This document shows, one piece after another, positions 3,755 through 58,097 of a stretch of 64,000 bases of DNA. How positions within the stretch are numbered: the first letter of the stretch is position 1; the number at the start of each line of letters is the position of its first letter. The DNA comes from Fibrisoma limi BUZ 3. GTDB lineage: Bacteria; Bacteroidota; Bacteroidia; Cytophagales; Spirosomataceae. The DNA lies in NCBI RefSeq assembly GCF_000296815.2, contig NZ_CAIT01000005.1:62001-126000 (forward strand), given 5' to 3'. The notes beneath the pieces were generated by a model. That model saw nothing but the letters and a program-made list of their open reading frames with translations. It was not told the DNA's origin and did no database searches. Both the position numbers and the translations under genes were made by a program.

Positions 3755-3786
3755 GTAGCTTTACCCAACTATTCCAACGAACCACC

Positions 3787-41309: not shown

Positions 41310-41340
41310 GAGTCTATTTTACAAATGGTTTGACTTCAGC

Positions 41341-42630: not shown

Positions 42631-42792
42631 GAATGTTTCAGTGGGTTGGGTACGAAAAAAGCCGCAACAGTTAGTCGCGGCCCTGAATATAGCTAATTGA
42701 ACAGTGATGCCACAGATTCATCAGCTTTACACAGATTTTATTTGTGCAAAGCTGTCGGTCCGTCGATGCGGGTTTCTGCGGCAGTTGAACGT

Positions 42793-43248
42793 TTATTTCT
42801 TCACAATCACCCCGTCGGCGACAAAAGTCAGTGCTTTTTCGGGCTCCGTGATTTTCTCAATTTCTTCTTTTGGCTTACCGGCGTCGTGGGCGTAGTGGCG
42901 CAGTTCGTCAACGGGCGTCACGGTGGTCTGGGCGGTGCCTTCTACGACGACTTTCTTGCCTACGATGTCTTTCGGTACGAAGAAGCCGTAATCCTTGAAT
43001 GTAACGCGCATGGACTGGCCATCACCGGTTTTTACCTTCATCCAGCAGCCTTTCATTTTGCAGACATCTTCAACCACGCCTTCTACCTTAGCGGGCATTT
43101 CGGCTTTCGTTCCCATTTTATCCACGAGCTGCGTAGCCTGGATGGCACCTTTTTCGGAAATCTTTTTGCCATGGTAGCTTACTTCGCTCTGCGCCGAAAC
43201 CGTGAACGATGCGCCGACGAGCAGCCCAATGATCAGTATGTTTTTCAT
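42793..43248 (-). CDS. DUF4920 domain periplasmic protein
   Basis: 151 residues from ATG 43248 (MKNILIIGLLVGASFTVSAQ, a cleavable signal peptide); a longer frame to 43341 adds no useful sequence. The DUF4920 core is seen in VEGVVEDVCKMKGCWMKV with a CxxxxC pair and VTFKDYGFFVPKDIVGKKVVVEGT, an OB-like beta barrel. Function unknown; the Cys pair might bind a metal or form a disulfide. A TATCTTTG box lies 29 bp upstream. Confidence 0.85.
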   Translation of the reverse strand: MKNILIIGLLVGASFTVSAQSEVSYHGKKISEKGAIQATQLVDKMGTKAEMPAKVEGVVEDVCKMKGCWMKVKTGDGQSMRVTFKDYGFFVPKDIVGKKVVVEGTAQTTVTPVDELRHYAHDAGKPKEEIEKITEPEKALTFVADGVIVKK

Positions 43249-43277
43249 AATGAGATAGTATATGACTGATTGACAGG

Positions 43278-43285
43278 CAAAGATA
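43278..43285 (-). promoter_or_regulatory. Candidate -7 box for the DUF4920 gene
   Basis: TATCTTTG on the minus strand fits the Bacteroidota consensus TAnnTTTG and lies 29 bp before the start codon at 43248. A -33 TTG at the right distance is not clear. Confidence 0.4.
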
Positions 43286-43411
43286 CGAAGATTGCGGCTT
43301 GCCACTTGTACTTTGTTCTGGACGGCTATCAAAAATCTCAATAAAATTCGTCAAAAATTTATAAGCTTGTTCCTTAAGTAGCTACTTCAATTAACGAATC
43401 ATCTCCGTACT

Positions 43412-45454
43412 ATGACGATGAATAAACAACTTCTGGCGGCTGGGCTTTGCGCCTTATCCGTAGTAGCCTGCCAGCAGAAAGATCAGGACACACCCCGCCG
43501 TACTACGTTCTTCGACAAATCGGGCATGGATACCACCGTATTGCCCGGCAATGACTTCTTCAGCTACGCCAACGGCAACTGGGTGAAAAAGACCAAGATT
43601 CCCGACGACCAGACCGGCTGGGGGTCGTTCTATTCGCTGTACGACGAAAACCAGTTGAAGACCAAAGCGATTCTGGAAGAAGCCGCCAAAGCTGATGCCA
43701 AGCAGGGGAGCGTTGAACAGAAAGTGGGCGATTTTTACGCCAGCGGCATGGATACGGCCACCATCGACAAACTAGGCTACGAGCCGCTCAAAGCTGAACT
43801 GGCTAAAATCAACGCACTGACGGATTATAAGCAGGTGCTGGCATACCTCGCAGCCGACGAATCGAACCGTGGGGGAGAATTGTTCGGTTTTTACATCGGG
43901 GCCGACGACCGCCAGAGTTCCATCAACCGGATCAACTTCGGCCAGGCGGGACTATCCTTGCCGGAGAAAGAATACTACACCAAGACCGACGAGCCGACCA
44001 AAAAAATACGGGCTGCTTTCGTGGCTTATATCGCCAAGATGTTTACGCTGATCGGGGTCGATTCGACCACGGCGAAAACCAAGGCGCAGGGCATACTGGA
44101 TTTCGAAACGGCATTGGCCAAGGCGCACAAAGCCCCGGCTGATCTGCGCGACCCCGTGGCCAACTACAACAAACTGGCCGTAGCCGATCTGACCCGGCAG
44201 ATGCCGAATCTGAACTGGCGGCAGTTTATGGACAACATGGATCTGAAGCGAATCGATACGGTGCTGGTTGGGCAGCCGGGCTATTACCAGGCACTGGATA
44301 AGCAACTGCCAGCCACACCCATCAGCGTACTGAAAGACCGGCTCGTATTCGACCTGCTCGACCGCAACGCAGGGCTTCTGAGTAAACCGTTCGAAGAGGC
44401 CAGCTTTGCCTTCAACGGCAAAACGCTGTATGGCCAGCCCCAGCAACCCGAACGCTGGAAACGCATTGCCAATCAGGTAGATGGCTCGCTGGGCGAGGCC
44501 CTGGGTGAACTGTGGGTGAAAAAGTATTTTCCACCCGATGCGAAGGAACGGATGCTGACGCTGGTGAACAACCTCCAGAAAGTGTACCGCGAACGTATCG
44601 AAAAGCTCGACTGGATGTCGCCGGAAACCAAAAAAGTCGCGTTGATAAAACTGGATCGGTTTACAAAGAAAATCGGCTACCCTGATAAGTGGAAGGATTA
44701 CTCGGACGTTGAGGTGAAACGTACCGACTATTTCGGCAACGTACAGAGCGCCCGCAAGCATCACTACAAGGAAGAATTCGCCAAAATTAACCAGCCCGTC
44801 GACCGGTCGGAGTGGGGAATGACGCCCCCGACCGTAAACGCCTATGCCAACCCTACCAACAACGAGATCGTGTTCCCGGCCGGAATCCTGCAATTCCCGT
44901 TCTTCGATAAGGACGCCGACGACGCTATCAATTACGGGGGCATCGGTATGGTGATCGGCCACGAGATGACTCACCTGTTCGATGATCAGGGCCGCCAGTA
45001 CGACCCCAACGGCAACCTCCGCGATTGGTGGACGAAGCAGGACGCTGAGCGATTCAAAGCTAAAGTAAAGCCCGTAGTTGACCAGTACGGCAACTACACC
45101 GTGTTGAACAACCTGCGGCTGAACGGCCAACTGACCCTGGGTGAAAACCTGGCCGACCTCGGCGGCTTGACGCTGGCTTATCAGGCGTTTAAGCTAACGG
45201 AGCAAGGTAAGAGCAATGAAAAAATCGACGGATTAACGCCTGATCAGCGGTTCTTCCTGGGCTTTGCGCAGGTCTGGCGCATCAAGATTCGCGACGAAAC
45301 CCAGCGCGTGCTGGTGTCGGTCGATCCGCATTCACCGGCCAAGTTCCGCGTTAATGGCCCACTTACGAATTTCGAGCCGTTCTATAAGGCGTTTAATGTA
45401 CAGCCCGGCCAGAAGCTGTACAAGCCTGAAGTCGCCCAGGCGAAGGTTTGGTAG
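43412..45454 (+). CDS. M13-family metallopeptidase, lipoprotein (PepO/neprilysin-like)
   Basis: 680 residues from ATG 43412 (or 43418). The lipoprotein signal ends LSVVAC (C at about 20). The large N-terminal helical domain begins around TTFFDKSGMDTTVLPGNDFF. The zinc site HEMTH lies near residue 516 in VIGHEMTHLFDD, the third ligand Glu in GENLADLGG near 577, and the substrate-binding NAYANPTNNEIVFPAG motif at about 470-490. Degrades peptides outside the cytoplasm. The stop is 45 bp before the convergent stop of the photolyase-like gene, with a shared hairpin. Confidence 0.95.
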   Translation: MTMNKQLLAAGLCALSVVACQQKDQDTPRRTTFFDKSGMDTTVLPGNDFFSYANGNWVKKTKIPDDQTGWGSFYSLYDENQLKTKAILEEAAKADAKQGSVEQKVGDFYASGMDTATIDKLGYEPLKAELAKINALTDYKQVLAYLAADESNRGGELFGFYIGADDRQSSINRINFGQAGLSLPEKEYYTKTDEPTKKIRAAFVAYIAKMFTLIGVDSTTAKTKAQGILDFETALAKAHKAPADLRDPVANYNKLAVADLTRQMPNLNWRQFMDNMDLKRIDTVLVGQPGYYQALDKQLPATPISVLKDRLVFDLLDRNAGLLSKPFEEASFAFNGKTLYGQPQQPERWKRIANQVDGSLGEALGELWVKKYFPPDAKERMLTLVNNLQKVYRERIEKLDWMSPETKKVALIKLDRFTKKIGYPDKWKDYSDVEVKRTDYFGNVQSARKHHYKEEFAKINQPVDRSEWGMTPPTVNAYANPTNNEIVFPAGILQFPFFDKDADDAINYGGIGMVIGHEMTHLFDDQGRQYDPNGNLRDWWTKQDAERFKAKVKPVVDQYGNYTVLNNLRLNGQLTLGENLADLGGLTLAYQAFKLTEQGKSNEKIDGLTPDQRFFLGFAQVWRIKIRDETQRVLVSVDPHSPAKFRVNGPLTNFEPFYKAFNVQPGQKLYKPEVAQAKVW

Positions 45455-45458
45455 TTCT

Positions 45459-45496
45459 CTCACGGCAGCGGTTCCTGCGGGGACCGCTGCCGTGAG
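45459..45496. terminator. Bidirectional hairpin between convergent genes
   Basis: Perfect 14-bp stem CTCACGGCAGCGGT/ACCGCTGCCGTGAG with a 10-nt loop, midway between the convergent M13 peptidase and photolyase-like genes. No long U-run, so efficiency is uncertain. Confidence 0.6.
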
Positions 45497-45498
45497 GG

Positions 45499-46695
45499 CT
45501 ACGTCCAGTACAGAATCGGTGCGTTTGGAAAACGCTTCTGCCACTCGGTATAGAAAAACGTTTTCAGTTCTTTCATGTCGTCCGGCCGGTAAACGTACTT
45601 CGTGCCGCCGAACTTGTTGCGCTTTTCGGCGCGGGTAGCCTCCTCCATGTCGAGGGTCGTGTTGGGATACCACTGCAACAGCACATCCTTTGAGCCGGGC
45701 GTGAAGCGGTGGCTGATCAACTCGACGTTCATGTCCAGCGGTCCGGCGGTTCGGCTAAAATCAAGCACCTCGGCGATGCGGTCGAGGAGGGCGGTGTAAT
45801 GCTCCCGCCAGTCCGGAATCGGCATGATTGGCGCGATAACCAAACCAATCGGGTAGCCGCCACCCCCCAACTCCTTCGGTAAGGCCAGCTTACGAATCGC
45901 CTGGAGCCGGGCCTCAACCGAGGCCGTACCACCCTCCAGCCGTCGGGCAACCGTATCAGCGTTGAGGCTGACGCGGGCGCGGGTCTGGCCATTATGGGGC
46001 AGATCGAGCAGACTGTCCACCTGGTCGTATTTCGTCACAAAACGCAACTGCCCTTTCGCCCGCGTACCATAGTATTTGATACATTCAGCCAGGCTACCGG
46101 TCAGGTGTTCAATGCCCAGTACGTCGGTATAGCAGCTTACCTCAAACGTAGTCGGGCGATCAGCGTCTGTGCCCTGCCAACTGCGGTTTGGTGGGTACGT
46201 ACCTTCATAGGCAGCCGTACTTTCCAGCATTTTGGGCAGATTGGCGTAGACACGCACAACCGGTGGGCCGGCCAGACTACCAGCCAGATAACAGTACTGA
46301 CAGTGGGCGGGACAACCTTCAGCCAGGTTCATCTGCCAGTCGGCCGAGGGCGGAATGGGTTGCAGGCGGAAGGCACTCTTCGGGGCGTTAACAACCGCCA
46401 GCGTGTTCTTGGCAATACGGTACGTTTCGCGGTCGTCGGCTCCGCGCAGGCCGGTGATGCGGTTGTTCTTCATGACCTCGATCGGCAAGTTCAGGGCCGT
46501 AACGCGCTCGTAAATCTGCTGACCAAATGGCTCGTCGAGCGCATCAGGGGTGAACACAACGCGCTTCGGCATCCAGATGCGGGCTGAGCGCGTATCCGCA
46601 GTACGTACAGGGGTATTTTGTTGAGGAGATAAAGGCGTAGAAGCCGCGGGTGTATGTTCCAATACCATGTCGACGTTGAGGGGCAAACCCGTCAA
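45499..46695 (-). CDS. Spore-photoproduct-lyase-family radical SAM protein
   Basis: 398 residues. The radical SAM cluster motif CPAHCQYC (CxxxCxxC) is at residues 128-135, and a further conserved Cys in EVSCYTDVLG (about 188) matches the position of the catalytic Cys of spore photoproduct lyase. SPL repairs the thymine dimer of spores by a 5'-deoxyadenosyl radical; Bacteroidota do not form spores, so its substrate in these bacteria is unclear. Some relatives are linked to general UV tolerance or DNA repair. The N terminus (about 1-35) is Pro/Thr-rich; the true start may be the internal ATG around residue 10. Confidence 0.85.
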   Translation of the reverse strand: MTGLPLNVDMVLEHTPAASTPLSPQQNTPVRTADTRSARIWMPKRVVFTPDALDEPFGQQIYERVTALNLPIEVMKNNRITGLRGADDRETYRIAKNTLAVVNAPKSAFRLQPIPPSADWQMNLAEGCPAHCQYCYLAGSLAGPPVVRVYANLPKMLESTAAYEGTYPPNRSWQGTDADRPTTFEVSCYTDVLGIEHLTGSLAECIKYYGTRAKGQLRFVTKYDQVDSLLDLPHNGQTRARVSLNADTVARRLEGGTASVEARLQAIRKLALPKELGGGGYPIGLVIAPIMPIPDWREHYTALLDRIAEVLDFSRTAGPLDMNVELISHRFTPGSKDVLLQWYPNTTLDMEEATRAEKRNKFGGTKYVYRPDDMKELKTFFYTEWQKRFPNAPILYWT

Positions 46696-46867
46696 ATCAT
46701 CACGAACCTTTCGCTGTGGGCTGCCAGATAAATAACACGAATAGCGGCCGTATAAATCCCATAATCTGGTTTAAGTTGTATATGTAAGCTATTGATTTTT
46801 AGTGTTTTGTGAAATATTTTGGTCATTATAGCAGTACGCTGTGCTGACGAAATCATATTCAGTGTTT

Positions 46868-46923
46868 CATCACAATGGAAACGCCCAACATATTGTTATG
46901 CGTTGGGCGTTTCCATTGTGATG
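46868..46923. repeat. Perfect 22-bp hairpin in the 46.7-47.2 kb intergenic region
   Basis: Left arm CATCACAATGGAAACGCCCAAC (46868-46889, first part shown) pairs exactly with 46902-46923, with a 12-nt loop. No U-run on either strand. The 485 bp between 46696 and 47180 contain this hairpin and no gene that I can support: a frame at 46819-47073 passes through the hairpin and resembles nothing. A second copy of the CCGGCAGG motif lies at 47081-47088. Confidence 0.6.
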
Positions 46924-47180
46924 GAAGAATCACTCGTTCGCCCGTCAGTTCAAGGAAATGAGATTGTAGAAACGACTAAAAAGGGCTTAATAAAGCCAGT
47001 TGCTGGTGAAAGATCGGCCATTTTGTTCGTATTATGGAGAGCGCTGTGTTCTTGCTTGCCCTACTCCGCTTGAGCTGGCTCCGGCAGGTCGCTATCCGTG
47101 AATCAATGCGTCAATCAGACCGGCGACCTGTTGGTATCTCCAGTGAACGATTGGGTAATAGTTAGACGCTGTTAATGGTT

Positions 47181-47657
47181 TCAGATTAGTCCGGCCGTAG
47201 CACCCGACATGGTGGCTATGTAATACGTTGCCCCATAAACGCCCAATAAAACCAGAAAGTTGTTTTCGGCGGCTGCTTTGTAACTGATGTCGTACTTGTA
47301 ATTGAACTGTCGACAGTTGAACGTGGGGTCGTACTGAATTATCAATTCACCATCCTGATTTTCCAATACGTACTTGCCCTGAAAAAGCGGTGCTTTTAAT
47401 ACATATTCCTGCGTTTGCCGAACCATCAATACAACTTGCCCTAACCAGTTCATGGTTAAACTGGCAAGCTCGGCCCCGTCTTTTGTCACAGCCATGCGTG
47501 TGCTAAAAATACCTATGGGCCGAATTGCGTATGATTCGCCATTTGCTAGCCTAATTTCGGCTTTGAACGAAAATAAATTTTGATAGATTAGTTCGCCCAA
47601 CAATTGTCCATTCTGGGTTAATTGAAACGTCTTTGTGTCTGTCGATTGCGCTTGCAT
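47181..47657 (-). CDS. Unrecognised cytoplasmic protein in sigma-factor operon
   Basis: 158 residues from ATG 47657 (MQAQSTDTKTFQLTQ); the longer frame to 47945 overlaps the neighbour and is not needed. Beta-rich, no signal peptide; a hydrophobic C terminus (NNFLVLLGVYGATYYIATMSGATAG) may be a membrane anchor. It resembles tubby/scramblase-like beta-barrel proteins with a tail anchor only in outline, and I do not assign a family. It lies on the same strand downstream of the ECF sigma and its membrane partner with a 127-bp gap. Confidence 0.55.
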   Translation of the reverse strand: MQAQSTDTKTFQLTQNGQLLGELIYQNLFSFKAEIRLANGESYAIRPIGIFSTRMAVTKDGAELASLTMNWLGQVVLMVRQTQEYVLKAPLFQGKYVLENQDGELIIQYDPTFNCRQFNYKYDISYKAAAENNFLVLLGVYGATYYIATMSGATAGLI

Positions 47658-47784
47658 GCTTTTTTGAGTTAAGTCCTTAATACAAAATAAAAGAAGGCAG
47701 TCCCTTGCCAGGATAACCACTAAGAAGTAAATCGATGTCTTTTGCCGTTTATTTGTCTTACGTGGTCTACTTGCAACGTAAACG

Positions 47785-48353
47785 TCAGTCAGCCTGTAAT
47801 TTTCTCCGAAGCTTTTCCAGGTCCTGTTTTCTGGCTTTGTATTGCCTGTGCTCCCAACCGGTGGTATAATAACCCACCACAAAAAACACAAGTAGGGCCA
47901 GCGTTGGCCAAACGGATTGTCCATCTGTCCAGACACCCAGCACACTCAGCACACTGATGGGGAGCATGTTCCACCGCATGAGGAGAGAGAGACGAACCTG
48001 ATAGGTAGCAATGGCAAGGGCATAATCCAATTCACCAAGCAGGGTGCGATCTGTTTTTTTTCAGTCTGTAATCGACGTATCCGACTGACCATACTATAAA
48101 GGCCCGTAACCAGCATCCAGCCCGCCATTAGGTAGATAAATACATTCGCTGACCGGTTGATCACATTAAGGCCCAGCACGAAAAGCCCACCTCCGGCGTA
48201 AGCAATCAGTAAGAGCAGTTCTGTCATGTTGGTAATCTTGCGTACCTGACTTTTTTGGGCCAGAATATGCTCGGTCAACGCCTGTTCGTTGATCGACCAG
48301 AGTGGCTTTCTGGTCTGGGAATCCCAGATTTTTTGCAATTCGTCAAATTCCAT
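47785..48353 (-). CDS. Putative sigma-factor partner (membrane protein), frameshifted at A8
   Basis: Two frames join to one protein of about 190 residues: the first (MEFDELQKIWDSQTRKPLW, start 48353) runs with two membrane helices to QTEKK, where eight A in a row (48054-48061, T on the plus strand) end the frame; one extra A, or a -1 slip, gives TDRTLLGELDYALAIATYQ, which continues to 47785 with two more helices and a coiled tail. The family is seen as the second gene after ECF sigma factors and is probably a transmembrane regulator. Overlaps the sigma gene by 11 bp. The break may be an assembly error, a real mutation, or a slip site used for regulation. Confidence 0.72.
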
Positions 48354-48855
48354 GATAGTGCTGCTGTTTGGATTTTGAAACAAGCTGGCTTTTGATCCGA
48401 TTAATTTTTACGCCCAGATGTGATTCTGAAATACCCAAAATGCTGGCCATTTCTTTGTAGCTGAACCCATCCAGCAGCAGTAGGCAAAGAGAACGATCTA
48501 TTTCATCGAGTTTATAAATTTCCTCGTACAGCCAGGTGAGTCGTTCATCGGGCTGATCGTCAGGTTCCGATAAAATAGACGGCAGTTGGTCGAGTGGTTG
48601 GTTTGCCTGCGTATGTTTGCGCTCTTTATTGACCCATTTAATAGCCGTATTCAGGGCAATACGATAAATCCAGGTCATCGGGGATGCCTGGCCCCTGAAA
48701 CCCGGAACAGAGCGCCAGATCTGAATGATAACTTCCTGAAAAAGATCATCCTGATCCATAGCCGTCCAGGCATACGATCGTACGACTTTAAAAAGCAGTG
48801 CTTTATACCGAACGAGCCACTCGTTGAAGGTATGGTTCTGCTCCTGCTCACTCAT
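48343..48855 (-). CDS. ECF-type sigma-70 factor
   Basis: 170 residues. Region 2 (about 15-80) contains LLFKVVRSYAW and DQDDLFQEVIIQIWRSVPGFRG; region 4 (about 115-165) holds LYKLDEIDRSLCLLLLDGFSYKEMASILGISESHLG with its helix-turn-helix. Recognises a specific promoter set, probably including its own. The next gene overlaps the end by 11 bp and is probably the regulator that holds or tunes it. No FecR-like domain is near. The upstream 48856-49418 region has no coding sequence. Confidence 0.93.
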   Translation of the reverse strand: MSEQEQNHTFNEWLVRYKALLFKVVRSYAWTAMDQDDLFQEVIIQIWRSVPGFRGQASPMTWIYRIALNTAIKWVNKERKHTQANQPLDQLPSILSEPDDQPDERLTWLYEEIYKLDEIDRSLCLLLLDGFSYKEMASILGISESHLGVKINRIKSQLVSKSKQQHYHGI

Positions 48856-49199
48856 ATTACCCGTAGTTTACGCAATTAGTACCCGGCGAGCAGTGAAATA
48901 TTACAAGGAGTAAAAAGAAAATCTATTGGTGACTATTTTCCTCCTTTGAACGGCCCAATGCGCTCCCTATTACTTTAGCAGTCCGGCAGGCCATCTCGCT
49001 CAAACCCGGCCGGCCATAGAGGCCTGTTTGTTGGATCCCCGAACGGCTAACGGCTGTAGTCTGACTGAGGAACCAATTTCATTTTTTGATCATTTTGAGG
49101 AAGTTTGTGTGCGCTCGTTACCAACGAAATGACCACCATTACGGATCCCAAGCAGATGGCGGCTTCGGCCTTTAGATTTACCTCGTTGCACGTTTCCAA

Positions 49200-49418
49200 G
49201 ATTATACGTGTAGCTTAACCCCACTCACAACCTGTGAGAACCAACTCCGGCAGGATTACCTTAAGGCTTCGGCAAGGAAAGACCTATGGACGGATTCAGG
49301 GACCTGCCGGATTACTTTAGACATTCGCTTCAAATAGAAATGCGGGCTTACGACCCATAAGAAAGGTATTGAGGGGTCTAAACGTTGGTCAATCCTTATT
49401 TTTTTACCCTGTAAACTT
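49200..49418 (+). ncRNA. Candidate bridge-RNA region of the IS110 element
   Basis: In IS110-group elements a structured bridge RNA is encoded in the non-coding end upstream of the transposase. This non-coding stretch holds two inverted repeats: CTCACAACCTGTGAG (49223-49237) and CCGGCAGG (49247-49254) pairing with CCTGCCGG (49303-49310). The left boundary of the element is not determined. No coding frame lies in 48856-49418; the motif CCGGCAGG also occurs at 48983-48990 and 47081-47088. Confidence 0.35.
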
Positions 49419-50426
49419 ATGCAGCAATTTGACTACTTCATTGGCGTAGATGTATCCAAAGCCACTCTGGATTTTGCGGTTGCTAAAGCCAACCAAATCT
49501 TGTTTCATCAGCAAGTAACTAATGACAAAAGAGGCATCACTCAGTTTCTCAAAGAGTTGCGCCAGCTCACAAAAGCCAGTCTAAAACAATGCTTATTCTG
49601 TGTGGAGTTTACCGGAATCTACAATAACCCATTACTTAACGTACTCCACCGACAGGGTGCCCCTATCTGGGTGGAACGAGCCGCTCATATTCAAGAGAGT
49701 ATGGGACTGACACGGGGTAAAACCGATCAAGTAGATGCCAAACGCATTGCCCTATTTGCTTACAAGAACCGCGATGAAGCTCGCCTGTGGACACCTCCCA
49801 GAGCCATCATCGCTCAACTGGACCGTCTAACTGCACAGCGTGCCCGCCTGGTTAAGGTGATTAAAATGCTGCAAACTCCACTGACTGACACGGAGGGCTT
49901 TGTTGGAAAAACAGAACGTAAGGCTGATCAACAGGCGTGTGCCGCTTCTCTCAAATCGCTCAAAGCCGACCTACAGTCAATTGATCAGGCAATTGCAAAA
50001 CTGGCTCAACGAGATCCTGAACTAAAACGACTTTTTGAGCGAGTCACTTCCGTAGTGGGCATCAGCCAAACGACTGCTGCTGAGATCATCGTAGCGACTA
50101 ACGAATTCACGACCATTTCAGACCCCAAGAAATTCGCTTGTTATGCTGGCGTGGTGCCCTTTGAACGGAGTTCTGGCCAACGAAGAGGAAAACCCCAGGT
50201 TAGTCATATGGTCAACAAGAAAGTCAAATCGTTACTTCATTTAGGAGCCATGTCGGCCATTCAGCATTGTCCTCAATTGAAACTATATTACAAACGCAAG
50301 GTGGCCGAAGGAAAGAACAAAATGTTAGTTCTCAACAACGTTCGCAACAAGATGGTCCACCGGATTTTTGCTTGTGTTCGTCAAGATCGAAATTATGACG
50401 AAAACTTTTCGCACTCCTTTGTTTAA
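49419..50426 (+). CDS. IS110-family transposase
   Basis: 335 residues. The N-terminal DEDD RuvC-like domain starts with DYFIGVDVSKATLDFAV (first Asp), then CVEFTGIYNNPL (Glu) and TDQVDAKRIALFAYKNRDE (Asp pair). The C-terminal Transposase_20 domain begins around VTSVVGISQTTAAEIIV and contains the catalytic Ser motif FERSSGQRRGK. Full length and intact. The family moves by a serine-type attack guided by a bridge RNA. A decayed copy of another IS110-family member lies directly downstream. Confidence 0.93.
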   Translation: MQQFDYFIGVDVSKATLDFAVAKANQILFHQQVTNDKRGITQFLKELRQLTKASLKQCLFCVEFTGIYNNPLLNVLHRQGAPIWVERAAHIQESMGLTRGKTDQVDAKRIALFAYKNRDEARLWTPPRAIIAQLDRLTAQRARLVKVIKMLQTPLTDTEGFVGKTERKADQQACAASLKSLKADLQSIDQAIAKLAQRDPELKRLFERVTSVVGISQTTAAEIIVATNEFTTISDPKKFACYAGVVPFERSSGQRRGKPQVSHMVNKKVKSLLHLGAMSAIQHCPQLKLYYKRKVAEGKNKMLVLNNVRNKMVHRIFACVRQDRNYDENFSHSFV

Positions 50427-50446
50427 GTCATAGAAATCCGTCCGAC

Positions 50447-50815
50447 TGCCTTGTAGGTGTAGCTGTCTTTGTATATAGCTCAGGGACCAGTATACGAGCC
50501 GGTCCGCCGGGCGGTAAAACCCGAGTAAGTCATCAAGCGGCAGCGGCCGTCCGTCAGGAAACGCTTAAAGGCTTTATTTCATTTAGGAGCGATGTCCTGC
50601 ATCCGAAAGGAAGGCGAGCTGCAAAAGTATTACCAACGAAAAATAGGCGAAGGCAAGATCGGATCGCCGAAGCGACAAGATGCTGCCGGGCCGCCGGGCG
50701 GTATTAAATGCTATTCGGAACAATCGGACCGCCGAAGCGGCTCATCCACCGAGTGTATGCGGTAGTTCGCCGGAAAGAGAAACATAACGAAAAGTATATC
50801 TCACCCCTTGCTTAG
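50447..50815 (+). pseudogene. Decayed IS110-family transposase C-terminal remnant with short insertions
   Basis: The frame begins with TGC at 50447 and, after removal of five 15-16 bp insertions (50499-50513, 50540-50555, 50659-50674, 50686-50700, 50724-50739), continues to TAG at 50815 as one reading frame, about 97 codons: YSSGTSIRGKTRVSHQ, then LKALFHLGAMSCIRK, YYQRKIGEGKNKMLVLNAIR and HRVYAVVRRKEKHNEKY. This aligns position for position with residues about 246 to 335 of the intact transposase upstream but differs in many residues, so it is a relative and not a recent copy. The 5' part is missing. Confidence 0.85.
50499..50739 (+). repeat. Five 15-16 bp GC-rich palindromic units inserted in the IS110 remnant
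   Basis: Units: CCGGTCCGCCGGGCG (50499-50513), GCAGCGGCCGTCCGTC (50540-50555, probably inverted and diverged), TCGGATCGCCGAAGCG (50659-50674), CCGGGCCGCCGGGCG (50686-50700), TCGGACCGCCGAAGCG (50724-50739). Each can be removed without loss of a transposase codon. Consensus about YCGGNCCGCCGRRGCG, partly palindromic. Related units lie at 9436-9492; the core CCGGGCCGCCGGG recurs in reverse complement at 55379-55391. Confidence 0.8.
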
Positions 50816-50981
50816 GTCATAGAAATCGGTGCGATTACTGAACTGTCTCTTCTTACTTAAAAACCATTGCTCAGACACTTTTAACACCCAAGTGGATGCG
50901 TGTCGAGTAATCTGGCGCATTTACCCAAAATGTGTTATACTACCTCAACAATCTGATTCTGGATGTAAAACAAGTTAGTCA

Positions 50982-52250
50982 ATGAACAAGCTCCTAGTTA
51001 CGCTGCTTCTTTTGCTGACCGTTCGCCTGGCCTACGCTCAGAAAATTGTCAATAACTATGACGAGGCCAACGTAGGTACATTTGCCCTGCCCGATCCGCT
51101 GGCTTTGCCGGGTGGTGGCCGAATCACTACCGCCAAACAGTGGGAAATGCAACGGGCCAGCTGGTTAAGGACATTTCAGGAAACGATGTATGGCTATACG
51201 CCCGACAAAAAATTAACCCTACGATTTCAGGTCGTTGAGACGAAGCATGATGCACTGAACGGGCAAGCCATTCGCAAGCGGATCAATATCTACGTGACCG
51301 AGTATCCGACTCTGTTACCCATCGAACTGGTTCTATACGTACCCAAGGCGGCCAAAAAACCGGTTCCTGTTTTTGTCTCCCTGAATTTTGTGGGCAATCA
51401 CGGCATTACGGCTGAAAAAGACATTCCCCTGTCGGAGCGGTGGATGCGAAATAGCCCGGATACAATGAGTACCCCTGCCGTCGTGAAAAACAAAGCCAAC
51501 GAGTGGGCAAGGGGTGTACAAACCCGCCGTTGGCCGCTGGAAGCTATTTTGGAGAGGGGGTACGCTGTCGCCACGGCCTATTACGGCGATATCGAACCCG
51601 ACCACCGGGACGGGTGGAAGATAGGCATCCGGTCTATGCTGGGCGACACGGCCAAAGCGAACAACTGGGGGGCTATTGGGGCCTGGGCTTGGGGCCTGAG
51701 CCGGATGCTCGATTATCTGGAAACCGACAAGCTGGTCGATGCGAAGAAAGCGATTTCGCTGGGCCATTCCCGATTGGGCAAAGCCGCTTTATGGGCGGGT
51801 GTTCAGGATACCCGGTTCGCCATGACCATTTCCAACGATTCCGGTGAAGGCGGGGCAACCCTGACCCGTCGCAACTTCGGGGAGAACGTGTTTGACATCC
51901 ATAAGAACAATTCGTTTTGGTACTGCAAAAACTACTTTACGTATCTGGGGCATCCCAATGATTTACCTATGGATCAGCATATTTTGCTGGCATTAGTTGC
52001 GCCCCGGCCTTTGTACATCGCCAGTGCTTCCCAGGATTTGTTTGCCGACCCGAAAGGGGAGTTTTTGAGTGCTCTGAACGCCGAACCGGTCTATAAACTG
52101 TATGGGAAAGCGGGCCTGGGCACTACGGTTTGGCCCAGGCCCGGCATGGCGATAGGCAACACGATCGGCTATCACCTCCGTGACGGCATACACGACATCC
52201 TACTTTACGACTGGGAGCGTTTCATGAACTTTGCCGATAAGAACTTGTAA
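50982..52250 (+). CDS. CE15-like glucuronoyl esterase, secreted
   Basis: 422 residues with signal peptide to residue 19 (ending LAYAQ). The alpha/beta hydrolase core has the nucleophile motif GHSRLGKAALWAG at about 257-269, a relative of the GCSRxGKGA motif of carbohydrate esterase family 15, followed by ISNDSGEGGATLTRR, and the C-terminal His in RDGIHDILLYDW. CE15 enzymes cut ester links between lignin and glucuronoxylan. The next gene downstream is a glycosidase pseudogene, so the pair may be part of a reduced carbohydrate-degradation locus. Confidence 0.85.
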   Translation: MNKLLVTLLLLLTVRLAYAQKIVNNYDEANVGTFALPDPLALPGGGRITTAKQWEMQRASWLRTFQETMYGYTPDKKLTLRFQVVETKHDALNGQAIRKRINIYVTEYPTLLPIELVLYVPKAAKKPVPVFVSLNFVGNHGITAEKDIPLSERWMRNSPDTMSTPAVVKNKANEWARGVQTRRWPLEAILERGYAVATAYYGDIEPDHRDGWKIGIRSMLGDTAKANNWGAIGAWAWGLSRMLDYLETDKLVDAKKAISLGHSRLGKAALWAGVQDTRFAMTISNDSGEGGATLTRRNFGENVFDIHKNNSFWYCKNYFTYLGHPNDLPMDQHILLALVAPRPLYIASASQDLFADPKGEFLSALNAEPVYKLYGKAGLGTTVWPRPGMAIGNTIGYHLRDGIHDILLYDWERFMNFADKNL

Positions 52251-52287
52251 AACCCTATGCTCGTGTCTCTGCGTCTGACACTTTTGG

Positions 52288-52625
52288 TTGATTTTACATG
52301 TGCTGACCGCCCTACGTGCGGCCCACGGCCAGAACCCGGCTGGCGCGCCCAAAGCAGAGCCGAAAAAGGGTGTGTATGTCAACATGCACTACAACCAGCC
52401 GCTCCGACCGCAGGTGCATTACCCCACCCTCCGGGCAAATCGCCGACCCCACCGGCCTGATTCGCTACAAGGGCAAGTACCACCTGTTTTATATGTTCGA
52501 CGAATGGTCTCGTCCCTGTAGGAACAATAAAAACTGGGGCCAATCCATCAGCGACGACGGCATTAACTGGGAACAGCTCCCCCACATTACCAACCCGGTC
52601 ATCGACAACCCACCCAGCAGTGTCA
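52288..52625 (+). pseudogene. Remnant of a GH32-type glycoside hydrolase
   Basis: Recognisable N-terminal motifs are split over two frames. Frame one reads KKGVYVNMHYNQPLRPQVHY; frame two continues PPSGQIADPTGLIRYKGKYH and WGQSISDDGINWEQLPHI. This is the GH32 (levanase/invertase) opening, but the catalytic NDPNG is changed to ADPTG, the frame is broken near 52424 and the sequence ends after about 110 residues, far short of a 450-500 residue enzyme. A dead gene or a deletion scar. 52626-52888 shows no gene I can support. Confidence 0.75.
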
Positions 52626-52888
52626 ACCTCCTATCAGGATTAATTTTGAGTATCAATCATCGAGTCCAAAACTGACAACCTTTTTTCAGGATCGGACAAA
52701 CGGTCAACGCTTTTCAGGACGGGTCATCCCAAAGTGGCTGGTTTGTAAACAAGTGATTCTCCAAGCAGAATGTATTGCCGAAAAGTAGACTTAACTCTAC
52801 TCGTTGAAATGTAGAGATGGTCAGGCTTAATACCCTATCGGTTAGATATTTACATCCGACCGCACTATAGGCTCATATGCATTCGGAT

Positions 52889-53638
52889 TTACCGAATATC
52901 ATCGTACCATCGTTTCAGCTTATCCGGCGGGTAACCGATGCCCCATAGAAACCCAATCGCCAGGAAAATACCGTTCGCTTTCCAGAACCCCCATTTAGCC
53001 ACGCGCCGATCCGACGATTCCACGACGCGGTTTACCTGCCGGATGCGACCAAAGCGTACCAGTTTCAGCAGCAGGTCGGCTTCTTCCATGATCGGCATAT
53101 TATCGGTATAGCCACCCACGGCCAAAAACTGCTCCCGTCGGCAGAAAATCACCTGATCACCAAACAGGAGCCGGGCACCTTTGAAAAAGAACAGATGCGG
53201 CCGGAACAGCATGGGGGCATAGTAGGTCTTGATGTAATTGTGAAACGACGTCAGCCAGCGCGTTTTAGTTGGTCCGCGCATAACCGAAATAAAACCACCG
53301 GCGGCAATCCTGGGGTCGTTGAGGGTCCGTTTGATCACTGAAAGTGCGTCGTCGGGTAGGGACGTATCGGCGTGCAGGAAACACAGAATGTCGCCCCGGG
53401 CTTGTCTGGCGGCATGGTTCATCTGACACGACCGCCCTACCTGTGGGCAGGCCACGACCCGCAGCCGGGGATAGTCCTGCTGAGCGGCTTTCGCCAGCCG
53501 AACGGTCTGGTCGGTACTCCCGGCATCAGCCACCAGCACTTCGAGCGGTTCGGGACACAGGCGCCGGAGCAGGCGAAGTGTTCGCGGCAGGTCACGCTCT
53601 TCGTTCAGCGTAGGGATGATGATGGAGACGTTGAGCAT
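52889..53638 (-). CDS. Family 2 glycosyltransferase (TIGR04283-like)
   Basis: 249 residues. Opens with VSIIIPTLNEERDLPRTLR, followed by DAGSTDQTV, and FLHADTSLPDDA with the DxD-type metal site (HADT). The sequence AGGFISVMRG and a C-terminal membrane-associating segment (FWKANGIFLAIGFLWGIGY) fit the TIGR04283 subgroup. Transfers a sugar from a nucleotide donor; acceptor unknown. No partner gene in the immediate surroundings. Confidence 0.87.
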   Translation of the reverse strand: MLNVSIIIPTLNEERDLPRTLRLLRRLCPEPLEVLVADAGSTDQTVRLAKAAQQDYPRLRVVACPQVGRSCQMNHAARQARGDILCFLHADTSLPDDALSVIKRTLNDPRIAAGGFISVMRGPTKTRWLTSFHNYIKTYYAPMLFRPHLFFFKGARLLFGDQVIFCRREQFLAVGGYTDNMPIMEEADLLLKLVRFGRIRQVNRVVESSDRRVAKWGFWKANGIFLAIGFLWGIGYPPDKLKRWYDDIR

Positions 53639-53745
53639 ACAGAGTCCAAACCAATTTAGGGCGGGTCGGTTTACGTATCGATGGATGATACTAGCAGCCG
53701 GTCGCTAGTTTAGTCATTCTTTTCGTACAAATTTTCCTCTATACG

Positions 53746-55305
53746 GTGTTTCGATTCCTTCCGAATGTGCTGCTGAAGCAGCTTTATACGCGCCAAAGCC
53801 TGCGTAACACCAGCGTTGGTTTTACCTTCTCGCTCAAGAACCGCCTGGCCGATGCCCGGTTTACGGGCCTGCAACGGGCTCTGATTGACGGACATGAATA
53901 CCCTGCCGACATCTTTACAATTGAACCTGATGGTGCAGAACCCGTAGCCGTAAGTGCCATTTCAGCTTCACAGCCACTGGACTTTCCGCTTCGGCGGTCG
54001 GTGCGGGTGCGGGCAAATGCCGACCACCTGACGCCCGGGCTGCATACACTGGAAATTACGTTGCATACCCAACCGTTCGGTACCATCACGCTGCGGGTCG
54101 AGGATGAACTACAAACGGAAGCAGCAACCCAGGGCCGCTCTGCCGGTGTTCCCCGCGACCCGGTCAATGACTACAGTCCCGAAGCGATCGACCAGCGCCG
54201 ACAGTTTGTAGGCCAGTTTGCAGGGGTTGATCTTCAGCACGTAACTCGTCAGTCGTTCGATCCCGCTCTGGTAACGGGCAATTGCGAACAGTTTATCGGG
54301 GTGGCACAGGTGCCGATCGGCGTAGCCGGACCGCTGCGGGTCAACGGGGAACATGCGCAGGGGGAATTCCTGATTCCTATGGCCACCACCGAAGGAACAC
54401 TGGTGGCCAGCTATAACCGGGGCATGAAGTTGATCAACCTCAGCGGTGGCGTTACGTGTACCGTGCAGGACGACGGGATGCAGCGGGCACCGGTGTTCCA
54501 GTTTGCAGATGCCCGACAAGCCCGTCAGTTTGTGCAGTGGGTCAACGAGCACCAGCCAGAACTGGCAGCCGAAGCCGAATCGACCTCGCGGTTCGCTAAA
54601 CTACGGTACATTGATAGCTACCTGAACGGCCGGCTGGCGTTCCTGCGCTTTGGCTATTCGACCGGCGACGCGGCCGGGCAGAATATGGTCAGTAAGGCGA
54701 CGCTGGCGGCCTGTAATTACATCCTGCAGCAGGTTGAGGGTATTGACCATTTTTTTCTGGAATCGAACCTGGCAACGGACAAGAAGCCGTCGCAGGTAAA
54801 CGTACTGAGGAGCCGGGGCAAACGCGTAACGGCAGAGGTGCGCATTCCCCGCGATCTGCTGATCCGGGAGCTACAAGTCGAACCTGAGCAGCTCCACCGA
54901 CACGCCCGCATCGGCGACGTAGGGGCGCGGCTGGCGGGGACCAACAACAACGGCCTGCATTCAGTCAACGGTTTAGCGGCTCTGTTTATCGCGACGGGGC
55001 AGGATGTGGCCTGCCTGGCCGAATCTTCGGCGGCCATTACGTATTCGGAGATTACGCCCGAAGGTGATCTGTACGGTTCGGTTACGTTGCCGTCGCTGGT
55101 TATCGGCACGGTGGGGGGCGGCACCGCCCTACCAACGCAGCGGGAATGTCTGGAGCTGATGGGTTGCTTCGGTCCCGGCCAGGTGAACAAACTGGCCGAA
55201 ATCATGGCTGGGGTCGTAGCCGCGGGAGAACTGTCGCTCGCTGCGGCTATCTCGTCGCTCGACTGGGTGTCAAGCCACGAAAGCAGCCGATTTGCGGGGA
55301 AGTAA
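53746..55305 (+). CDS. Hydroxymethylglutaryl-CoA reductase with an N-terminal beta domain
   Basis: 519 residues. The catalytic part starts at about 140 with CoA/HMG-binding GNCEQFIGVAQVPIGVAGPL, MATTEGTLVASYNRG (catalytic Glu), STGDAAGQNMVSKAT (DAMGMN-like), GTVGGGTALPTQ, and the late His in WVSSHESSRF. It reduces HMG-CoA to mevalonate. Residues 1-130 form an additional beta-rich domain (TSVGFTFSLKNRLADARFTG, DFPLRRSVRVRANADH) of unknown role, not in classical enzymes. The start codon could also be slightly upstream. The isoprenoid pathway is only implied; no other mevalonate gene lies in the window. Confidence 0.93.
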   Translation: MFRFLPNVLLKQLYTRQSLRNTSVGFTFSLKNRLADARFTGLQRALIDGHEYPADIFTIEPDGAEPVAVSAISASQPLDFPLRRSVRVRANADHLTPGLHTLEITLHTQPFGTITLRVEDELQTEAATQGRSAGVPRDPVNDYSPEAIDQRRQFVGQFAGVDLQHVTRQSFDPALVTGNCEQFIGVAQVPIGVAGPLRVNGEHAQGEFLIPMATTEGTLVASYNRGMKLINLSGGVTCTVQDDGMQRAPVFQFADARQARQFVQWVNEHQPELAAEAESTSRFAKLRYIDSYLNGRLAFLRFGYSTGDAAGQNMVSKATLAACNYILQQVEGIDHFFLESNLATDKKPSQVNVLRSRGKRVTAEVRIPRDLLIRELQVEPEQLHRHARIGDVGARLAGTNNNGLHSVNGLAALFIATGQDVACLAESSAAITYSEITPEGDLYGSVTLPSLVIGTVGGGTALPTQRECLELMGCFGPGQVNKLAEIMAGVVAAGELSLAAAISSLDWVSSHESSRFAGK

Positions 55306-55367
55306 CGGGTCGATATGGGCTCATGCGCCCGTAGTGAACAAACGAGCTGAAAGTCTCCAATGTGCTT

Positions 55368-55413
55368 TTTCTGTCATCCCGGCGGCCCGGTCCTGACGTC
55401 GGGATGACAGAAA
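55368..55413. terminator. Hairpin after HMG-CoA reductase gene with REP-like loop
   Basis: Outer stem TTTCTGTCATCCCG (55368-55381) pairs with CGGGATGACAGAAA (55400-55413). The loop carries GGCGGCCCGG, the reverse complement of the GC-rich unit core in the IS110 remnant (13-mer CCGGGCCGCCGGG shared). The plus strand ends in few T, so it may act as a weak terminator or as a structured repeat. Confidence 0.6.
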
Positions 55414-55431
55414 TTTGAAACTCAGCCATCA

Positions 55432-55872
55432 TCAGAACCAGCCCGCGCCGGGAATACGGAACGGCCAGGGAATCAGAGCCAGAATAAGCAGCAGCCCGAG
55501 ACCATACCAGATGGCGACAAACCGCTGCTTGGTAGTGGGGTCGGTGGCGCGTTTCGACCGCGAGTAGCCGACCGTGATGAGGGCGATGGCCACCAGCATA
55601 CCCGTGATGTGCTCAACGGTGTAGAAGCGGTATACCTTATCGCTCAGCAACGCACCGTCGAACTGCACTTTAGGACTGACGAAATACAGAATCAGCCCCA
55701 GCACCAGTTGAATATGGACGGAAATAAGGGTAAACAGGTATAGCTTACGGTTACCGTCCGTGTAGCCGGAGCGACCCTGCCAGCGTTGAAACGCGACCAC
55801 AACGGCTGCAAGTAATAAAATAAGGGCTATCCAGCGAAGCCCCGAGTGAGCATGAACAAGTCCAGGATACAT
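55432..55872 (-). CDS. Four-helix membrane protein, cytochrome-b-like outline
   Basis: 146 residues from ATG 55872 (MYPGLVHAHSGLRWIA); the longer frame to 56034 crosses the promoter region. Four membrane helices. Histidines sit at helix positions compatible with haem or metal ligation: LVHAHSGLRW in the first segment, ISVHIQLVLGLILYF in the second and YTVEHITGMLVAIALI in the third. The family appears in Bacteroidota without a known role. A 14-bp palindrome lies upstream. Confidence 0.72.
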   Translation of the reverse strand: MYPGLVHAHSGLRWIALILLLAAVVVAFQRWQGRSGYTDGNRKLYLFTLISVHIQLVLGLILYFVSPKVQFDGALLSDKVYRFYTVEHITGMLVAIALITVGYSRSKRATDPTTKQRFVAIWYGLGLLLILALIPWPFRIPGAGWF

Positions 55873-55886
55873 AATCTGAAGAAGTA

Positions 55887-55900
55887 GGTAAACGTTTACC
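55887..55900. promoter_or_regulatory. Candidate LacI-type operator between divergent genes
   Basis: GGTAAACGTTTACC is a perfect palindrome of the shape bound by LacI/GalR-family regulators (AAACGTTT core). It lies 15 bp upstream of the minus-strand membrane protein start and 56 bp before the DUF4286 gene start. No LacI-type gene is in the window. Confidence 0.45.
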
Positions 55901-55956
55901 AGGCAAAGAAAAAGACAAAATGTCAACTTTCGGTTGAAAAGAGTTGTTCGTGCTCT

Positions 55957-56259
55957 ATGATTCTTTACAATGTTACCGTCAACATCGATGCAACCCTGGA
56001 GCAGGACTGGCTCCGGTGGATGAAAGCTGAACACATTCCCGCCGTCATGGCTACGGGGTTACCCGTCAGCAGCAAGGTGCTCCGATTACTTACCGAACTC
56101 GATAACGGCGGGGTGACCTATACCGTCCAGTATTTCTTCAATACGCTGGAGGACTACGAAATCTACCAGAACGATTTTTCTCAGGCCCATCAGCGGCAAC
56201 ACCACGACCGCTACCGGGACCGTTACGTATCGTTCCGGACATTACTGGAAGATGCCTGA
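55957..56259 (+). CDS. DUF4286 family protein
   Basis: 100 residues, an alpha-beta (ferredoxin-like) fold seen in MILYNVTVNIDATLEQDWLRW, KAEHIPAVMATG and VTYTVQYFFNTLEDYEIYQ. Small cytoplasmic protein common in Bacteroidota; function unknown. No operon partner; a convergent-spaced sigma factor gene follows after 90 bp. Confidence 0.88.
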   Translation: MILYNVTVNIDATLEQDWLRWMKAEHIPAVMATGLPVSSKVLRLLTELDNGGVTYTVQYFFNTLEDYEIYQNDFSQAHQRQHHDRYRDRYVSFRTLLEDA

Positions 56260-56348
56260 TCTTTCTGGCTTGGGCGAGACAAACTGATTATTTTTAATGT
56301 TTGCCACTATTTGAGGAAAATATTGAAGAATAATCAGAAATTGCCTGA

Positions 56349-56909
56349 GTGAAAGCAACTTCGGAGCAACTACAGCATTGGCTCGACCGCATTGCCCGGC
56401 ACGATGATCGCCGGGCATTTCGGATGCTGTTTGACGTGTTCTATCCGCAGTTGCTCCGGTTGGCTGTATACTACCTCAAAGTGCGCGAAACGGCTGAAGA
56501 GATCGTGCAGGATGTATTCGTTAAAATCTGGCAAATTCGGCAGACGTTACCTGCGGTCGGTAATTTTCGCTCCTATCTCTTCTCCACTACCCGTAACCAT
56601 TGCCTGAATCAGTTGCAGAAAAAAGGCAGCCCGGTCCTGATGAGTTTCCACGACGTACCGATTGATGGCCTGGCCGGTCCCGATCAAACCCCCGACGAAG
56701 CCGTCGAATTTCAGGAAACCCAGTCGAAAGTACAGACGGCGATCAACAACCTTCCTCCGCAGTGCCGTCTTGTTTTTCAATTTGTAAAGGAGCAAGGTCT
56801 GTCATACAAAGAAACGGCCGAACTGCTGCAAATCTCCCCCCGAACGGTAGAAACTCAGATCGGTATTGCCCTCAAAAAACTGGCTGCTGCTCTGGGTGAC
56901 TCTCATTGA
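56349..56909 (+). CDS. ECF RNA polymerase sigma factor, Bacteroides-expansion (FecI-like) type
   Basis: 186 residues, start GTG 56349. Region 2 has DDRRAFRMLFDVFYPQLLRL and EEIVQDVFVKIWQ; region 4 has NLPPQCRLVFQFVKEQGLSYKETAELLQISPRTVE. Works with the FecR-like anti-sigma factor encoded 105 bp downstream, and senses substrate through the SusC-like transporter by direct contact with its N-terminal domain, as known for FecI/FecR/FecA systems. It likely switches on the susC-susD operon that follows. Confidence 0.93.
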   Translation: MKATSEQLQHWLDRIARHDDRRAFRMLFDVFYPQLLRLAVYYLKVRETAEEIVQDVFVKIWQIRQTLPAVGNFRSYLFSTTRNHCLNQLQKKGSPVLMSFHDVPIDGLAGPDQTPDEAVEFQETQSKVQTAINNLPPQCRLVFQFVKEQGLSYKETAELLQISPRTVETQIGIALKKLAAALGDSH

Positions 56910-57014
56910 TTAATGCCTGACGGGTTCTTGCCTTAAAATTTTCAAAATTTTTCTTGAATCGTTTACGGGTTGTTGAGGCCAAACACTGTCTTAGCAGATG
57001 AAACCATGTGAACG

Positions 57015-58064
57015 ATGAACGAATCGATTGATTGGGAACTACTCGGCAGGATTTTCGCGAACGAAGCGACCGAAGATGAACGGCGGGCGTTCAACGAGTG
57101 GCTGAAGGCTAACCCCGAATCGCAGCCGCTGGTCGATGCGCTACGGCAACACTGGCAGGCTTCGCCCCCCACGGAATCATCGCTGGCAACGTCGGTGGCG
57201 TTCAACCAGGTCTGGGGCCGTATTGAAGCCGAAGAGGAGACAGGTACGGCTGTCCGCCGGATTGGGCAGCGTTCGTGGCTGGGTTGGGTCGCGGCTGCAT
57301 CCGTTGTACTCGTCGGGCTGGTCATCGGCTGGAACGTCTACCAGAGCCGAAGTGTTGAGCCGACGCTGGTACAGCAGGCTAACCCCAAAGGTACCCGCTC
57401 GAAAATTCACCTGGCCGACGGCAGTACCGTATGGCTCAACGCCGACAGTCGGCTGAACTATCCAAAGACGTTTACGGGCGCATTGCGTGAGGTATCGCTG
57501 GAGGGAGAAGCTTTCTTTCAGGTGGCGCATAATCCGAAACAGCCGTTTGTGGTGCGGCTGAAAACCGGGTCGGTACGCGTACTGGGAACGTCGTTCAACA
57601 TCCGGGCGTATCCGGGCGACAGTATCGTTGAAACGTCGGTCGTAACGGGTAAGGTGGCGTTTATTCCGAAGCAGCCGGCCAGAAAACGCGCCGACTTGCG
57701 GGCTGAACAGACGATACAGCCCGTATCTGATACGTTGTTCCTGACGCCGAACCTGAAAGCTGTTCAGTCGCTGACATCGCGACAAGTTATGACGCAGTCG
57801 ACGGTGGCGGCTAACCAGATCGCCTGGACAGAGTCCAAGCTTGTCTTCCGCAATACTCCACTGGGCGAAGTGGCCAAAACACTGGAGCGCTGGTACGGCA
57901 CACCGGTTTCCCTCGAACATGAATCGCTCCGCCAATGCCCGCTGACGGGTACGTTTCAGAACCAGAGCCTGAAAGAGGTCATGAATCTGATTGCCATGAC
58001 CAAGCGGTTCGATTACGAACTGACTGAATCCCGGCTTACCATCAAGGGACCGGGCTGCGAATAG
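57015..58064 (+). CDS. FecR-family anti-sigma factor with C-terminal DUF4974/secretin-like domain
   Basis: 349 residues. A short cytoplasmic N-terminal part (NEATEDERRAFNEWLKAN) contacts the sigma factor. A membrane helix lies at about 95-112 (AAASVVLVGLVIGWNVY). FecR domain about 125-235 contains GTRSKIHLADGSTVWLNADS. The C-terminal STN-like domain (about 275-349) includes VFRNTPLGEVAKTLERWYG and CPLTGTFQNQSLKEVM. It lies between the sigma factor and SusC-like gene, 33 bp from the latter, and transmits the transporter signal to the sigma factor. Confidence 0.93.
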   Translation: MNESIDWELLGRIFANEATEDERRAFNEWLKANPESQPLVDALRQHWQASPPTESSLATSVAFNQVWGRIEAEEETGTAVRRIGQRSWLGWVAAASVVLVGLVIGWNVYQSRSVEPTLVQQANPKGTRSKIHLADGSTVWLNADSRLNYPKTFTGALREVSLEGEAFFQVAHNPKQPFVVRLKTGSVRVLGTSFNIRAYPGDSIVETSVVTGKVAFIPKQPARKRADLRAEQTIQPVSDTLFLTPNLKAVQSLTSRQVMTQSTVAANQIAWTESKLVFRNTPLGEVAKTLERWYGTPVSLEHESLRQCPLTGTFQNQSLKEVMNLIAMTKRFDYELTESRLTIKGPGCE

Positions 58065-58097
58065 AATAAATCCCAACCGAGTTTAACCCTACTATCT

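Follow-up and report, generated by a model that had tools for sequence, protein, structure and literature searches.

Five GC-rich units, each 15 or 16 bp long, break up an IS110 remnant within the 64,000-nucleotide window analysed here; they are probably members of a Spirosomaceae family of dispersed, very small and non-coding insertions that would be moved by a trans-acting enzyme and later copied among repeats. The window (G000:C10:62001-126000) derives from an assembly of 7.63 Mb in 14 contigs. It encodes an intact IS110-family transposase of 335 aa (49419..50426, plus strand; Pfam PF01548 and PF02371), which contains no units and has matches in 16 of 39 genomes, and the remnant of a second IS110 copy, representing the C-terminal part of the protein to its TAG (50448..50815, plus strand). 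Frame-aware alignment of positions 50430-50840 to L037, an intact IS110 relative, reveals insertions of 15, 16, 16, 15 and 16 nt and one further insertion of 3 nt, with no stop and no deletion, and 62 of the 93 aligned residues are identical. Large gaps are also opened at the unit positions when the intact IS110 copy and the remnant are aligned as DNA, and a protein match to the IS110 query falls within the remnant at G000:C10:112550-112657. A 12-nt sequence located behind the intact transposase (50430-50441) is repeated at 50819..50830 (plus strand; direct repeat D4, 92% identical), which is likely to be the right end of the old IS110 copy. A sequence-only reading of this stretch had described a relative of the IS110 C terminus interrupted at five places by GC-rich units of 15-16 bp, one of them inverted and diverged, outside which the fragments join as a single frame; the present analysis confirms this observation.

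Units 1 (50498..50512, plus strand) and 4 (50685..50699, plus strand) are 15 bp in length and belong to direct-repeat family D1, while units 3 (TCGGATCGCCGAAGCG; 50659..50674, plus strand) and 5 (TCGGACCGCCGAAGCG; 50724..50739, plus strand) are 16 bp in length and belong to family D2. Unit 2, a 16-nt insertion in the frame-aware alignment (50538..50553), is diverged and lies in the reverse orientation; its minus strand resembles, by eye, a 16-nt insertion, TCGGACGGCCGATGCC, in L166 from genome G020. Unit ends are uncertain by about one base, and such a shift is possible for units 1 and 4; unit 1 was positioned by eye from the SGTSIR|GKTRVSH motif, the aligner having placed it some bases downstream. 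The two 15-bp units leave the frame unshifted on their own. The place of unit 4 is also filled in L065, a remnant from Fibrisoma montanum (G001), and that of unit 5 in L068 and L166, while the sites of units 3 to 5 are empty in L066, an IS110 remnant from another genome. The core pattern CGGNNCGCCGN(1-2)GCG, to which unit 2 does not conform, has four matches in the window (at 50500, 50660, 50687 and 50725), all inside the remnant; the first-order Markov expectation for the window is a mean of 0.28, with a maximum of 3 in 40 resamplings. Chance or misalignment as the source of the units is rejected by this count together with the frame-aware alignment. No core match lies inside the intact IS110 transposase, nor within a 490-aa open reading frame on the minus strand (38162-39634) with the transposase domains DDE_Tnp_1_6 and DUF772. 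A search of positions 48900-51000 against Rfam gave no matches up to E = 1, and an RNA family was rejected as the identity of the units.

Window positions 41339-46777 and 52888-60000 align to contig C20 of F. montanum at 89 and 85 percent, respectively. The two aligned flanks are only about 154 bases apart in that contig, which therefore lacks the IS110 region at this position. The segment missing at the syntenic place (window 46778-52888) includes both IS110 copies, which makes an orthologous comparison of empty and filled states of the window remnant with F. montanum impossible there. A 422-aa open reading frame (50982-52250) with a match to Pfam GCE_fung (glucuronyl esterase) is located in the same absent stretch.

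The units have the form pCGGNNCGCCGxyGCG, 15 or 16 bp, and can adopt a hairpin with a 4-bp stem (pCGG with CCGx) followed by a short tail, or a second, overlapping hairpin that includes the next base. Covariation was examined in 93 de-duplicated units and flanks in 103. Both sets were drawn from sequence chosen partly for its units; they contain chance matches as well as a small number of loci from other families (L045 and L046), and one site, in L179, is located in an apparently conserved protein motif. Positions 0-11 are Watson-Crick paired in 66 of the 93 and positions 5-16 in 80, neither level being reached in any of 2000 permutations, and five other pairings tested in the same units show no excess. 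The 0-11 pairing is absent from 27 units, 11 of which have A-C at these positions. Among the 15 core matches located within aligned transposase copies, each of the two pairs is present in 13. Six examples, when folded with DNA parameters, form one or other of the overlapping hairpins (-3.9 to -4.5 kcal/mol). The flanks show a preference for RRN^RY, with a purine at -2, -1 and +16 in 79%, 83% and 95% of the units, respectively, and a pyrimidine at +17 in 74%. The protein frame fixes the target of units 3 and 5; there, base 16 is a target base and yet matches base 5, so that either matching targets are chosen or the unit includes this base and overlaps the target by one. No target duplication is seen at the protein-defined sites, within an ambiguity of one base.

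To follow the units across genomes, we counted matches to CGGNCCGCCGNNGCG in 39 genomes and used the reversed pattern as control. Exact matches outnumber the control in the source genome, G000 (31 against 7), F. montanum, the only congeneric genome among the 39 (43 against 6), G009 (110 against 1), G005 (38 against 1), G007 (18 against 0), G018 (15 against 5) and G017 (26 against 11), and all five genomes examined from the genus to which G009 belongs lie above control (110/1, 51/10, 33/2, 211/10 and 74/5). Other Spirosomaceae are near or below control (G003, 17/12; G004, 10/7; G024, 16/12; G014, 2/6) or have no matches, and counts in 14 genomes of other families range from 0 to 3 (e.g. 3 in G035, against a control of 21, and 1 in G038). 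The excess of units over control is thus a property of several Spirosomaceae genomes, not of all. A longer pattern, GGNCCGCCGNNGCGG, gives 26 matches in G000 against 7 for its control, and a looser consensus with one mismatch gives 74 against 49. The units are hence present elsewhere in the source genome and in its relatives, and they are not part of the normal IS110 gene, since intact, unit-free IS110 copies serve as the references; these findings support the earlier proposal that a very small repeated element was inserted at five positions.

The G000 sequence at hand contains 50 unit-like sites, of which 14 adjoin IS5-, IS3- or IS110-like sequence according to tblastn. One of the 14, L020, IS5-like according to tblastn, is unconfirmed, because its frame-aware alignment fell short of the required score of 80; unit 5 of the window, although inside the IS110 remnant, failed the tblastn criterion and is therefore outside the 14. 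The remaining sites are intergenic (often embedded in simple repeats) or fall in open frames, and some of them are probably chance matches. Stretches of G009, which were picked for units and often for pairs, contain 50 units with 16 opposite-strand neighbours within 140 bp, and the loop dinucleotide is common to 13 of the 16. Inverted pairs of units also occur between genes; of the three pairs with unlike loops, two are in IS5-like copies and the third belongs to a group of three clustered units. Elsewhere in G009 a unit forms the centre of a longer palindrome (L092:10084), and at other loci units are located in arms built of simple repeats (tacatt or tacgaatt, for example).

Fifteen transposase copies, most of them broken, were compared with intact references by alignment; eight are IS110 and seven IS5-like. 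They contain 40 GC-rich insertions of at least 9 nt, 31 of which are 15 or 16 nt in length (11 nt, 2, one of these being part of a 16-nt insertion split by the aligner; 13 nt, 4; 14 nt, 2; 15 nt, 14; 16 nt, 17; 20 nt, 1). Transposase genes hence take both 15- and 16-bp insertions, the latter shifting the frame. L205 and L066 have no GC-rich insertion of at least 9 nt and L167 has an AT-rich one only; two broken IS110 copies aligned outside this tally, L168 and L169, contain no unit. IS3-like copies in G000 (Pfam HTH_21 and HTH_Tnp_1) also carry units; the names IS3-like and IS5-like follow Pfam domains and are presumably appropriate. Several places are filled repeatedly: RNK|(L/V)IHR in the window remnant, L068 and L166; the position after KM(L) in the window remnant and L065; the EGK region in L067, L068 and L170; and KR|(L/V)K in L166 and L170. 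SQS|VKL is filled in L019 and L102a with different loops, suggesting separate insertion or later change. In contrast, the unit at KRWVVE|R is identical in L102b and L103 and lies in a locally more similar tract despite silent sites near saturation (pS 0.73), which points to conversion. Codons 14, 188 and 196 are filled in both L102b and L214, by units of 13, 15 and 14 nt, while some units are present in a single copy only.

The copies differ in their state of preservation. In L102a, L102b and the window remnant the units are the only breaks, and the frame is otherwise open to the end of each copy. L103 has in addition lost one codon and has stops at its end; L019, L166, L209 and L214 have further frame breaks, accompanied in all but L209 by stops, although stops near the ends of IS5-like copies probably include the natural stop; and further defects are found in L065, L067, L068 and L170. 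Comparison of L103 from G009 (about 3750-3850) with L102a shows two adjacent units that have seemingly recombined, with loss of the intervening codons. An IS5-like sequence in another genome, L206 (G042:C1), possesses an open frame of 283 codons in which the codon-14 place is occupied by an in-frame unit-like sequence.

Differences between orthologous sites were sought at 23 loci around ligA, where well-flanked indels of 9-40 bp were recorded as pairwise rows, so that one event may count repeatedly among the 28 rows obtained (15 bp, 7; 16 bp, 5; 9 bp, 10). The comparison of empty and filled sites suggested by the sequence-only reading here yields exact 16-bp differences in two Larkinella species pairs (L121 versus L134 and L126 versus L124), namely L. 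punicea with L. humicola and L. terrae with L. rosea. The unit concerned is a 16-bp variant, CGGGGCCGCCCxyGCG on one strand, which does not match the core pattern but would, judged by its architecture, belong to the unit family. Two GC-rich 15-bp indels around ligA are not clearly units. Within ligA itself, which was identified by Pfam and is the one host gene compared across species, unit insertions occur in multiples of 15 bp only: two 15-bp units stand in tandem and in frame in G000, F. montanum has one, and S. panaciterrae and Spirosoma sp. 48-14 each have a single unit that is more diverged. The ligA sequences of Spirosoma oryzae, S. validum and Larkinella contain no units, and a few other Spirosomaceae have variable inserts of a different kind in the ligA linkers. 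None of 18 well-flanked indels of 9-60 bp in 154 kb aligned between G000 and F. montanum is a clear unit indel, so that, except at special sites, movement is infrequent or ancient. A G000 unit at C10:265570 is without counterpart in F. montanum, in a poorly aligned intergenic repeat.

We favour a mechanism in which the unit would be recognised as a single-strand hairpin and a trans-acting enzyme would put it into purine-rich RRN^RY sites, with no target duplication to be seen; after entry into a sequence that is itself repeated, for instance an IS copy or a hairpin arm, it may spread further via recombination and arm-to-arm copying. It is rather unlikely that there is no transposition at all, and that a few old insertions copied among repeats by gene conversion and hairpin template switching merely look mobile. 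Such copying would account for the common loops in 13 of 16 inverted pairs, the identical unit in L102b and L103, the three units common to L102b and L214 and the alignment of G000 with F. montanum without a clear unit indel, and recombination alone could explain the many copies with common sites; against it stand the exact empty and filled sites between Larkinella species, units found in one copy only, and the presence of units in ligA and within flanks of diverse kinds. The replication or repair route that had been put forward earlier may still explain some of the spread, given that inverted pairs have common loops and the same places are filled in different IS copies. The suggestion, made at the same time, that the IS110 recombinase is the mover fares worse and is extremely unlikely: IS5- and IS3-like copies carry units too, and F. 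montanum, with 43 exact matches, has only one short remnant matching this IS110 protein query. Unit-bearing IS110 remnants do occur in several genera, and the unit-bearing genomes G000, G005, G007 and G009 all have IS110 matches. As the unit-rich G009 does have one such match, and as the F. montanum result was obtained with this single IS110 protein as query, it does not amount to exclusion. The Y1 transposase is a natural suspect from REP biology. Y1 genes are found in 33 of the 39 genomes and by eye do not track the unit counts, and one of the five Y1 loci examined, out of six matches in G000, G001 and G009, has a unit nearby; on these observations RAYT/Y1 is not favoured as the mover. In L186 (G009:C14) a unit at 1328 lies about 210 bp before the matched domain of an IS200-like Y1 gene. 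DNA uptake sequences were set aside because the units are insertions.

A further question is what the units do within transposase genes. We regard it as unlikely that hairpin units of 15-16 bp, entering transposase genes of several unrelated IS families at preferred sites and constituting the sole disabling changes in some copies, act as an insertional brake on transposons or are inserts that expression tolerates. Tolerance is favoured by a single result, to which we give little weight: dN/dS between L102b and L214, which have units of 13, 15 and 14 nt in common, is 0.15 at pS 0.48, yet the constraint could be older than the insertions, and a value of 0.08 is obtained at the same pS for the unbroken pair L207/L208. 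Translational bypassing or RNA removal, by which units would be skipped like mitochondrial byp elements and unit-laden transposases stay functional, is very unlikely. It could draw on this same ratio and on the three copies that are open up to their ends outside the units; however, L019, L166, L209 and L214 have other frame breaks or stops and are therefore decaying, and the open frame of L206 holds its unit-like sequence in frame, as if it were translated. The restriction of ligA to multiples of 15 bp also argues against skipping, although any unskipped coding insert must keep the frame. There is likewise little probability that a host process inserts units preferentially into IS genes and silences them. 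The proximity of 14 of the 50 G000 unit-like sites to IS5-, IS3- or IS110-like sequence (L020 being unconfirmed), the location of all four core matches of the window within 0.24 kb of one remnant, and the copies broken by units only are consistent with silencing, whereas most of the 50 sites are away from the IS types tested, the same genomes also contain intact, unit-free IS copies, additional defects are present in most other unit-bearing copies, and no candidate machinery is known.

The units may be read as analogous to the small dispersed repeats of cyanobacteria or to REP singlets, although they are smaller and often lie inside transposase genes. Miniature inverted-repeat elements (MITEs) share their terminal inverted repeats with an autonomous transposon and are flanked by a target duplication; no such duplication is seen at the protein-defined sites of our units, and the autonomous partner sought was Y1 only. 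Small dispersed repeats are very small units that are present or absent at orthologous sites, and are reportedly about 21-27 nt in length. Presence or absence of very small units at orthologous sites is also found here, in the Larkinella variant and in ligA copy number, and the likeness to such repeats that had been suggested from the sequence is upheld. As far as the title of Elhai et al. 2008, cited in PMC3116915, conveys, the cyanobacterial repeats are mobile; like them, the present units are very small, non-coding, dispersed and without a gene of their own. The two differ, by description, in phylum, in length (15-16 here against the longer range given above) and in the frequency of the present units in transposase genes. 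According to passages of PMC3116915, REPs and REPINs lie for the most part outside genes, as pairs linked to RAYTs, and no singlet excision was found there. As there, our units are short, palindromic, dispersed beyond chance and often in inverted pairs between which a hairpin is possible. The moving entity differs: pairs exist, but single 15-16-bp units are the inserted thing at the empty and filled sites and in IS genes, and no RAYT is seen following them.

Other known repeats show partial resemblance. CGTC repeats occur, according to parts of PMC3733652, in five phyla including Bacteroidetes, seemingly without a dedicated transposase, and repeats tagged by GTAG or CGTC combine a hairpin with a short unpaired end as our units do; the same source gives 20-40 bp for REPs, against 15-16 bp here, and our units end in yGCG (CGCr on the other strand) instead of GTAG or CGTC. 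Rickettsia palindromic elements, as outlined in portions of PMC10969869, are also inserted in frame into protein-coding genes but measure about 150 bp, against 15 bp here. Short blocks at many positions of coding genes are likewise found in Magnusiomyces mitochondria, where, in the sections of PMC5009743 concerned, the inserts are skipped in translation, which ligA does not suggest for our units. No description of such units in the Spirosomaceae was recognised in the openly licensed literature searched. Small palindromic mobile repeats are already known in other groups.

The units would be among the smallest bacterial units that behave as insertions with well-defined ends. Their shortness allows the recognition signal to be read directly, in the form of a flank preference and two pairs that covary. 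Because related species offer both empty and filled sites, the movement of gene-less palindromic repeats, an old question, becomes testable in culturable bacteria.
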